A stretch of 42,948 nt of DNA from Bacteroidaceae bacterium (GTDB taxonomy: Bacteria; Bacteroidota; Bacteroidia; Bacteroidales; Bacteroidaceae). The notes under the pieces are model-generated. The model saw only the letters and a list, made by a program, of their open reading frames with translations, ran no database searches and was not told the origin of the DNA. Of this stretch, positions 6,701 to 41,186 are shown piece after piece. Position 1 is the first letter of the stretch. Each line of letters starts with the position of its first letter. The DNA lies in contig JAFXGX010000084.1 of NCBI GenBank assembly GCA_017536695.1, forward strand, positions 1 to 42,948, read 5' to 3'. The position numbers and the translations under genes were made by a program.

Positions 6701-6802
6701 TTGCCGATGACATACTTCTTGTCATATAACCATAAAAACACCTGAGTTCTATATAAATTCAACCAAGTTGCGAATTTGTCATTCTATATTTGCACTGTCA
6801 TT

Positions 6803-6880
6803 GACTCGTTTTGCTTTTCGCAACCCAAACGGCATAACCTACGGCTATGCTACGTTTGACCTGTTGCTGCAAAACTTGTC
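6803..6880 (+). repeat. Nested-hairpin dispersed repeat, copy 1 (REP-like)
   Basis: Three nested stems are visible: outer GTTTTGC 6808-6814 with GCAAAAC 6869-6875; middle GCAAC 6820-6824 with GTTGC 6863-6867; inner CAAACG 6826-6831 with CGTTTG 6853-6858, continuing as GCATA 6832-6836 with TATGC 6846-6850. The inner stem has a TA bulge at 6851-6852 and a 9-nt loop. The same plan, in the opposite orientation, recurs in the array at 36081-36470 with different stem sequences. Confidence 0.75.
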
Positions 6881-6984
6881 GATAACAAAACGTTGTTTTG
6901 TCATTGCCTTTAGCCCCTGCGGGCGGCGACCTACGGTTCCGAGCGAGTGAAACGACGAGGAATCTCAAACAATACGCGGTAACA

Positions 6985-35839: not shown

Positions 35840-35945
35840 CAGAAAGTACGTCTCGGGCTCGTTTTACTTTTTCGCAGTTTAGTTGTTTAAGAACAGAGAA
35901 TTATTGAAAAAAAACTCCCAGACATGATAAAAAAGCACTTTTTGT

Positions 35946-35976
35946 TTTGCTTTATAATTTTTTGGGGATATATTTG
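35946..35976 (+). promoter_or_regulatory. Perfect Bacteroidota promoter with no gene downstream
   Basis: TTTG (35946-35949), exactly 19 bases, then TATATTTG (35969-35976). Transcription should start near 35983. No open frame of useful length follows before the terminator at 36041-36076. Confidence 0.75.
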
Positions 35977-35982
35977 CATAGT

Positions 35983-36076
35983 GCTTGAGACAATAGCACA
36001 ATGATAGTATAGTTTTTTCTTAGTTGTTTAGTAAATGTTGGAAGTATCTCTTTGTGAAAAGGGGTACTTCTTTTTT
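35983..36076 (+). ncRNA. Candidate small RNA (about 94 nt)
   Basis: Defined by a consensus promoter at 35946-35976 and an intrinsic terminator at 36041-36076. The only early start codon gives a three-residue peptide (ATG ATA GTA TAG at 36001). I do not recognise it as a known RNA family. Its 3' part is complementary to the head of each unit in the repeat array directly downstream. Confidence 0.5.
36041..36076 (+). terminator. Intrinsic terminator of the candidate small RNA
   Basis: GAAGTATCTC (36041-36050) pairs with GGGGTACTTC (36061-36070), with two G-U pairs, around a 10-nt loop, followed by six T. The 3' arm can alternatively pair with the AAAAGAAGTACCCC of the first repeat unit (36082-36095), giving a longer competing hairpin. 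Confidence 0.7.
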
Positions 36077-36080
36077 GTAA

Positions 36081-36470
36081 GAAAAGAAGTACCCCTTTCG
36101 ATAAAGCACGCCGCGATTGGTCACGCGTAGTACAGGCGTAGCTTGTACCGCGTGGGTCGCGTAAAAGCGTGCTTTGTCAAAATGCCCACGGGTAAGAAAA
36201 GAAGTACCCCTTTAGACGACACTTGCAGCAAAAGGTCAAGCGTAGTGTGGCTGTAAGTCACACCGCTTGGGTTGCGAACAGCAAGCGGAGTCAAAATGGG
36301 TTTTGCAAAAAGAAAAGAAGTACCCCTTTCGATAAAGCACGCCGCGATTGGTCACGCGTAGTACAGGCATAGCTTGTACCGCGTGGGTCGCGAAAAAGCG
36401 TGCTTTGTCAAAATGTCCACGAGTAAGAAAAGAAGTAACCCCTTTCGATAAAGCACGCCGCGATTTCTCC
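36081..36470. repeat. Tandem array of ~115-bp nested-hairpin repeats (3 full units and 1 partial)
   Basis: Units start at 36081, 36196, 36312 and 36427 (periods 115, 116 and 115). Each opens with GAAAAGAAGTA followed by ACCCC-like sequence. Units 1 and 3 are nearly identical, unit 2 differs over most of its length, and unit 4 breaks off near 36465. Unit 1 folds as AAAGCACGC/GCGTGCTTT (36103-36111/36167-36175), CGCGA/TCGCG, CACGCG/CGCGTG and GTACA/TGTAC with a TA bulge and 9-nt loop. Unit 2 has CAAGCG/CGCTTG and GTGTG/CACAC in the same places with the same bulge and loop size. The family is dispersed: see 6803-6880. Confidence 0.85.
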
Positions 36471-36572
36471 CATGCTTTTATGTAGTCGGGATTTGGACTT
36501 GTTTTGTTGATACTGTGGTGAAGTCAATAGAAAGAGTTTGAATCTACCTTTCTACAATTATGCTGTCATTTA

Positions 36573-41017: not shown

Positions 41018-41040
41018 AGTGCGGTTGCTTTTTCCACTTT

Positions 41041-41069
41041 GACGACACTCACAGCCGTAACCCACGCGG
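41041..41069 (+). repeat. Half copy of the nested-hairpin repeat
   Basis: GACGACACTC opens it like unit 2 of the array, and GTAACCCACGCGG matches the 5' half (middle stem, CC, inner stem) of the family in the orientation of copy 1. The matching 3' half is missing, so it is truncated. Confidence 0.5.
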
Positions 41070-41186
41070 CACGCTTTGTGAATCAGATAGAAATGTGAGA
41101 ACAAGTTTAAATAGTTTAAATTTGATTTTTTTTCTTTTGTTATAATTATTCTTTTAGATTAAAAACTATTAAATAATATTGATAGT

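Follow-up and report, generated by a model that had tools for sequence, protein, structure and literature searches.

A dispersed family of nested hairpins with complementary arms and nearly fixed irregularities in one genus of Bacteroidaceae

The hairpins at 36.08-36.47 kb and 6.80-6.88 kb of the window (the whole 42,948-nt stretch of DNA that was analysed) belong to a dispersed family in which the arms remain complementary while their sequences change. Both were found with the sequences given in the original prediction, and the array at 36 kb has a third unit and a truncated fourth in addition. The family has an even chance, in our judgement, of being a non-autonomous, REP-like mobile hairpin of one genus, moved by a putative enzyme and reshaped by recombination at a repeat called X. 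This reading starts from what was observed, namely the structure with its irregularities, the dispersal, the repeats that flank part of the loci, the turnover between relatives and one recombination product.

The array lies on the forward strand. The main nested hairpin of unit 1 occupies positions 36100-36178 (covariance-model match 36095-36186, 106.7 bits, fold z -6.7) and that of unit 2 positions 36215-36292 (match 36210-36300, 101.5 bits, z -3.5). Unit 3, which the prediction had not named, has its hairpin at 36331-36409 (match 36326-36417, 106.5 bits, z -7.0). The truncated unit 4 (36428-36465, +), recognized by a direct repeat and by reading the sequence, comprises no more than a spacer arm and the beginning of the hairpin. 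The main hairpin of the distant copy is on the reverse strand at 6803-6880 (match 6795-6885, 97.0 bits, z -6.6), within a full sub-family 1 element at 6777-6905 (-) that extends from AATGACAAAACAACGTTTTG to the right end GCAAATATAGAATGACA at 6777-6793. For each of units 1, 2 and 3 and the distant copy, none of 200 shuffles folded as well as the sequence itself. The sequence at 41037-41083 (-), in which the covariance model gives no match at E<=1, weakly resembles the hairpin in its right half.

Unit 1 is preceded by a palindrome (36058-36098, +; sequence reading) that is conserved in six species. It consists of X (36058-36074), which is the 3' arm of a terminator-like hairpin, and its counterpart X' (36082-36098), which is found again before unit 2 (36197-36213) and unit 3 (36313-36329). 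The stretch at 36002-36074 (AATGATAGTATAG...), which ends in the terminator-like hairpin and a T run, is likewise kept in six species and is perhaps a small RNA.

Every unit of the family folds into a nested hairpin some 80 nt long and has the arm X' before it, and the extended structure has 33 pairs. Upon comparing the four window copies, the predicted paired changes in the stems were found to be exact at most stem positions; the exceptions, in unit 2 and the distant copy, are columns 11/83 and 12/82 of the outer stem and some further ones, which do not pair. The supposed 9-nt loop is actually an 8-bp stem with a conserved G.T pair, closed by a 3-nt loop. Across the 116 distinct copies that were aligned, the position below the first stem is C.A in 95 and A.A in 19, columns 28/124 are T.G in 114, and columns 42/111 are G.T in 111 of the 112 copies with letters there. 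The dinucleotide bulge, predicted to be a constant TA, is TA throughout the window but varies over the family (TA in 37 copies, CA in 36, AA in 34, other in 9). The alignment also has an unpaired NGG and a conserved TGGG. Constancy of the flanks was borne out: the GTC of GGTC is present in 116 of 116 copies and its first G in 102, and the GGG of TGGG in 114-115 per position. At columns 9/157 of the outer stem a tandem G.A/G.A (48 copies) alternates with A-T/A-T (35 of the 116). The nearly fixed irregularities point to a specific recognition factor.

Two variants of the architecture were seen. In four copies (L070:6530-6667, L033:63-200, L068:5702-5839 and L079:1600-1737) the apical loop is interrupted by about 47 nt of inserted, palindromic sequence, which is a second repeat with the hairpin as its target. 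In G019, a relative of the source genome, an outer-stem hairpin lacking the inner core adjoins a complete unit (L213:7592-8000).

Covariation was measured in an alignment, A5, of copies from the source genome and its relatives with E<=1e-11, a limit that excludes weaker copies (124 rows, 116 distinct, 70 sources). Its structure is that of the model with a 4-bp terminal stem added. As A5 was fitted to the model structure, which biases it towards that structure, and relatedness can mimic covariation, a tree-based null was simulated: 60 alignments were generated on a tree from FastTree, with the number of changes per branch and the rate per column kept at their observed values. Of the 3777 cells of A5, 95.0% pair, compared with 31-46% when the partners are slid. 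Double changes occur at 26 of the 33 pairs (shuffled mean 23.1; 26 was reached in 2 of 500 shuffles), and the covariation score is 0.559 against 0.204 in shuffled alignments, with none of 500 shuffles reaching the observed value. Under the tree-based null, E<0.05 was obtained for 14 of the 33 structure pairs and for one pair outside the structure, columns 9/157. The outermost 4-bp stem is not significant under this null, and its covariation was dropped as a separate finding. The predicted covariation beyond phylogeny therefore holds at 14 pairs, in a dispersed family whose arms are kept complementary.

The 3095 cells at variable pairs, counted without the fixed T.G and G.T wobbles and the terminal stem, comprise 2876 Watson-Crick pairs, 95 G.T, 22 A.C and 102 others. 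The excess of G.T over A.C suggests that the given strand is the folding strand, as RNA or single-stranded DNA. It suits an alternative to which we attach some, though limited, probability: that the hairpin is a structured 3'-UTR RNA, co-transcribed with the upstream gene, whose nuclease-resistant or protein-bound form ends or stabilizes the mRNA and is kept because it is useful to the gene. The nearly fixed T.G and G.T also agree with such an RNA. Against it, only 95 of the 3095 variable-pair cells are G.T, a rarity that leans towards DNA or a concerted process. Rfam 15 gave no match at the gathering threshold over the window, the hairpins and 36002-36074 included, and only sub-threshold matches (15, E<=5) in 35850-36500. 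An RNA role in the 3'-UTR and mobility may both be true.

Further copies in the genome had been predicted, and many were found. The covariance model, built from the four window copies, gave at least 96 matches at E<=1 and 95 at E<=0.001 in the source genome (G000; 2.63 Mb, 109 contigs), many of them in tandem; the number 96 is a lower bound because 150 of 780 first-look candidates were scored. All 37 genomes of the genus have matches, with 1 to 70 copies each when at most 71 candidates were scored per genome. The model found no match in 24 genomes of other families. Among 295 genomes drawn from the order, with 14 candidates scored per genome so that weak or rare copies can be missed, two match, the source genome and G178 of another family; three genomes of other genera of the same family in this sample gave no match. 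G178 has two adjacent copies behind guaA (L325, G178:C52:3461-3661). This gene is also a hairpin site in several genomes of the genus, so that the G178 copies may be an old inheritance or may have been transferred together with it. A degenerate pattern run over the genome collection hit at least 105 stretches. Among the 80 matches listed, 79 are from Bacteroidaceae or Bacteroidales metagenome bins, and those listed bins that have a named sample come from the ruminant hindgut; a match in Salinarimonas looks like chance. Viral contigs had no exact match to one degenerate pattern, which says little about divergent copies. No paper on the present hairpin family was found in a literature search.

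The 89 matches from stretches of the source genome and the window form 61 clusters, 43 single and 18 multiple, none with mixed strands. No cluster lies inside an ORF of at least 150 aa (simple ORFs without annotation), and the copies are thus intergenic. The cluster has the orientation of its 5'-side gene in 39 of 49 cases, and in 18 of these 39 no more than 40 nt separate the stop codon from the start of the cluster; between co-directional genes, 22 of 27 clusters follow the gene orientation (two-sided binomial ~0.0015). This placement favours the 3'-UTR RNA, as does the fact that six species have kept the 36-kb array downstream of one and the same terminator-like hairpin. The other 10 of the 49 clusters, which are opposite to the 5'-side gene and at least 100 nt from it, do not fit such an element.

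Direct repeats, X, flank the hairpins in many loci, which gives arrays the form (X - X' - hairpin)n - X. There are two kinds of X. One is AATGACA, for the most part GAATGACA, and forms the end of a REP-like repeat; the other is the 3' end of a host gene, stop codon included, and leaves the gene whole. In sub-family 1 the order is AATGACA (mostly GAATGACA), AAACAACGTTTTGTTATC, hairpin, AATGACAGTGCAAATATA and GAATGACA. These elements are near-identical, with both ends, and are single-copy at 10 of the 18 loci inspected; they are followed by unrelated sequence on the right and mostly by a REP-like repeat on the left. With no more than one mismatch allowed, 21 right ends are present in the genome; 20 of them immediately follow a hairpin, and the other, at the locus of a RAYT gene, adjoins half a hairpin. 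REP-like repeats with a TGTCATT end are present at about 6899-6967 (-) of the window and in the flanks of many copies. Sub-family 3 copies (L033, L039, L041, L046, L066) are surrounded by runs of the related words GTTTAATGT and GTGTAACGT and by a GGGGCGGGGTCGGCCCGCCC repeat.

The flanks were compared at 48 loci without a second hairpin in the 90-nt flanks, taken from 74 non-redundant loci and 118 usable ones. The mean direct repeat between left and right flank is 12.9 against 7.0 in permuted pairs, and none of 10000 permutations reached it. The repeats exceed the 99th percentile in 14 of the 48 loci, with none standing out in the others, and their length varies from about 7 to 48 nt. Complementarity of X' to the arm just upstream is 7.1 compared with 5.3 permuted (0 of 10000 permutations), and is above the 99th percentile at 12 of the 48 loci. 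Such complementarity would also arise if the hairpins were by-products of replication, with fold-back synthesis and template switching at palindromes making X' and X, correcting the arms and copying hairpins between loci without a dedicated enzyme. The paucity of G.T intermediates at variable pairs, and perfect palindromes at gene ends that have no hairpin, agree with this origin, which we nevertheless consider improbable: correction of the arms should erase the C.A, T.G, G.T and bulge, yet all are kept, and the constant ends at unrelated loci are left unexplained. One of the hairpin-free palindromes, a perfect 27-bp one, lies on a CDS end in G019 (L226:1645-1860), at a site that has a hairpin in G000 (L071:1780-2100).

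The genome of G019 is mostly 94-97% identical to the source genome where the two can be aligned. Of the 61 clusters, 32 have no orthologue in the stretches compared and 16 have too short a flank, leaving 13 comparable sites. The number of hairpins, counted with a fuzzy expression, differs at 10 of these 13 (flank identity 81.6-97.5%). Such changes between close relatives speak against a 3'-UTR element kept for its use to the gene. One difference is a clean presence or absence of 122 bp with GAATGACAAA at both ends. It may be a deletion between direct repeats rather than an insertion; at this site G030 is also without the surrounding REP-like repeats. In G000 the extra unit at L037 is chimeric: its left 60 nt correspond to the end of a different KVLVK-type gene (L125), and its right half to the local hairpin. 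This unit is the product of recombination between loci, which the replication by-product would likewise yield. The 36-kb arrays of the six species contain different subsets of three outer-stem types, with inner cores exchanged.

Behind gdhA (30 rows), a complete hairpin follows the stop codon in G000, G035, G013 and G036, and a remnant is present in G029. In the four genomes with the complete hairpin the last codons of the gene are repeated after it, and in G035 the displaced copy continues into a repeat-rich flank resembling that of G030 and G019, which have no hairpin there. Behind murF (29 rows), a complete unit is found in G000, G030, G035 and G032 and a truncated one in G029 and G004; an additional apparent hit in G025 is spurious. 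In G000, G030 and G035 the murF copies still encode LPDNF(K/R) and then a stop codon, while the second copy of G032 is altered. There are two versions of the end, and G000 has them in the reverse of their order in G035. The 26 of 30 gdhA rows and 25 of 29 murF rows with no complete unit are a further difficulty for an RNA that serves the gene. In genes ending in KVLVK, presumably secretion-signal-like, X' in several cases is complementary to the final codons and the loop contains the stop codon, even where the codons differ.

Among 72 hairpins that follow a CDS, a repeated CDS end was found in 20 of 72 rows at a score of at least 9 and in 17 of 72 at a score of at least 12, as opposed to 5.2% and 0.9% of 1500 cross pairs, although the rows include orthologous loci and are not independent. 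Differences between repeated gene ends fall on codon positions 3, 1 and 2 in 37, 10 and 4 cases, and 31 codon changes are synonymous while 16 are not. Coding selection on both copies is not claimed, because a constrained CDS copy together with a drifting displaced copy predicts a similar bias. An unlikely, more far-reaching reading is that the folded strand of about 80 nt is a new mini-integrative class: a putative enzyme would read the nearly fixed mismatches, X', by its complementarity to the site, would guide the joining to REP tags or to the 3' ends of genes, the gene end would be left on both sides, and gene-end units would be moved between paralogues and species. With the gene end on both sides, the protein would be unchanged.

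The original prediction saw a likeness to REP elements moved by RAYT transposases. The REP-like part stood, as the copies are intergenic, occur in tandem arrays and include near-identical copies with unrelated outer sequence; mobilization by a RAYT did not. Y1_Tnp (PF01797) is present in three of the 37 genomes of the genus (G000, G018 and G029) and gave no match at E<=0.001 in the other 34, the genomes being 55-98% complete. Those without it include G019, G030, G031, G032 and G035, each with 50 to 66 scored hairpin matches. That the family is a REP family moved by the resident RAYT is highly improbable. In its favour, the one RAYT of the source genome has half a sub-family 1 copy beside it, and in the window copies the TA bulge and its neighbours spell GTAG. 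However, the hairpin is in 37 of 37 genomes, TA is the bulge in only 37 of 116 copies, the left half of the element is absent at the RAYT locus, and all three Y1 genes have other palindromes: the RAYTs of G000 and G018 adjoin one family, and the IS200-type gene of G029 adjoins a third. The covariance model gave no match at E<=1, and no complete copy was found, in the 36 kb of sequence surrounding the three genes. RAYT and IS200 proteins were rejected as partners on these grounds. The G000 RAYT, at L229:7851-9614 (G000:C79), has flanking palindromes of its own, and the gene beside it resembles what we take to be a YhcG/DUF1016-type nuclease.

Other candidates for the enzyme were also rejected. 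RVT_1 occurs in 14 of the 37 genomes, and a reverse transcriptase or retron was set aside because G010, G019, G029, G030 and G031, with 43 to 67 scored matches, have none. The search for a gene recurring beside the copies, in which 1061 ORFs from 177 loci were clustered, gave as its top cluster a spurious ORF across the repeat; the remaining clusters look like ordinary host genes, some from orthologous loci. As to an autonomous version with the same ends, the only right end without a full hairpin is that at the RAYT locus, which has no left half.

Several known systems share features with the family. In IS200/IS605 elements a folded strand with a bulge, whose 5' arm pairs with the target, is joined in a specific orientation without duplication. 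The present hairpin is similarly bulged and has an arm 5' of its foot that is able to pair with a target, and its joining would likewise be specific in orientation, but most carriers are without a Y1 enzyme and the flanking repeats are 7 to 48 nt long. That range of lengths also differs from the target duplication of fixed length that, together with terminal inverted repeats, marks a MITE of a DDE transposase. Genomic islands at gene 3' ends, for example guaA, leave the gene end on both sides and the gene whole, with the old end displaced. The hairpins do the same and also use guaA; unlike islands, they are about 100 bp in size, have no known integrase and occupy many target genes in one genome. 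Integron attC sites are imperfect hairpins with extrahelical bases, conserved in shape over sequence, and the family resembles them in all three respects; it differs in that the hairpin ends are GAC/GTC and the array units of about 97-119 nt are too short for cassette ORFs.

The family is filed among the interspersed palindromic repeats and works like a REP family. As described in PMC3733652, REP, BIME and REPIN repeats are GTAG-tagged, have units of 20-40 bp and are moved by RAYT. Like them, the hairpins are high-copy, intergenic, non-autonomous palindromes that form arrays; unlike them, they are about 80 nt long in nested stems, have no conserved GTAG at the variable bulge, have long direct repeats at gene ends, and flank no RAYT in the three genomes with a Y1 gene. 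The CGTC (TGTC) repeats, according to the same paper, have stems of 8-9 bp and loops of 4-5 nt, occur for some families in large clusters, are reported from Bacteroidetes among others, and have no known dedicated transposase. The clusters, the occurrence in Bacteroidetes and the lack of a known dedicated transposase are shared with the hairpins, and sub-family 1 adjoins repeats like the TGTC type and has the same TGTCATT end on the other strand. Relative to that description (PMC3733652), the hairpins have several stems with nearly fixed mismatches and a 3-nt loop, and the terminal CGTC/TGTC tag is limited to sub-family 1; neither sub-families 2 and 3 nor the 36-kb array have it. The family is set apart from the GTAG repeats because the tag and RAYT tests failed, and from the CGTC repeats because the tag and size tests failed.

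In the preferred reading, a mobile hairpin, the enzyme would recognize the folded single strand, more probably as DNA than as RNA, by its fixed distortions and would join it at an X-like site, so that X is left on both sides; it would be a protein other than the resident RAYT or RVT_1 protein. Exchange among the X copies and among hairpins of different loci, by recombination or template switching, would multiply, delete and swap units, and complementarity of the arms would be kept by selection through the enzyme or by hairpin-templated repair. Support for mobility comes from the high copy number with many copies in tandem, the constant ends of sub-family 1 at unrelated loci, the turnover in copy number, the direct repeats, the L037 chimera and the strong covariation combined with nearly fixed irregularities. 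Mobility is weakened because no enzyme was found among Y1, RVT_1 or recurring neighbours, because an RNA element would also account for the strand asymmetry and for the preference for gene 3' ends, and because the clean 122-bp site may be a deletion and the flanking repeats are strong in only 14 of 48 loci.

Short palindromic repeats for which no transposase is known are a standing question, with the CGTC repeats as a published case (PMC3733652). The present family is strong material here, with some hundred copies in a single genome, covariation above a tree-based null, nearly fixed irregularities, and presence or absence differences at named genes of close relatives. The factor sought is expected in the high-copy species and would bind a defined strand of about 80 nt. 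If gene ends are duplicated on insertion, the hairpin would have an unusual, harmless entry into core genes such as gdhA, murF and guaA.
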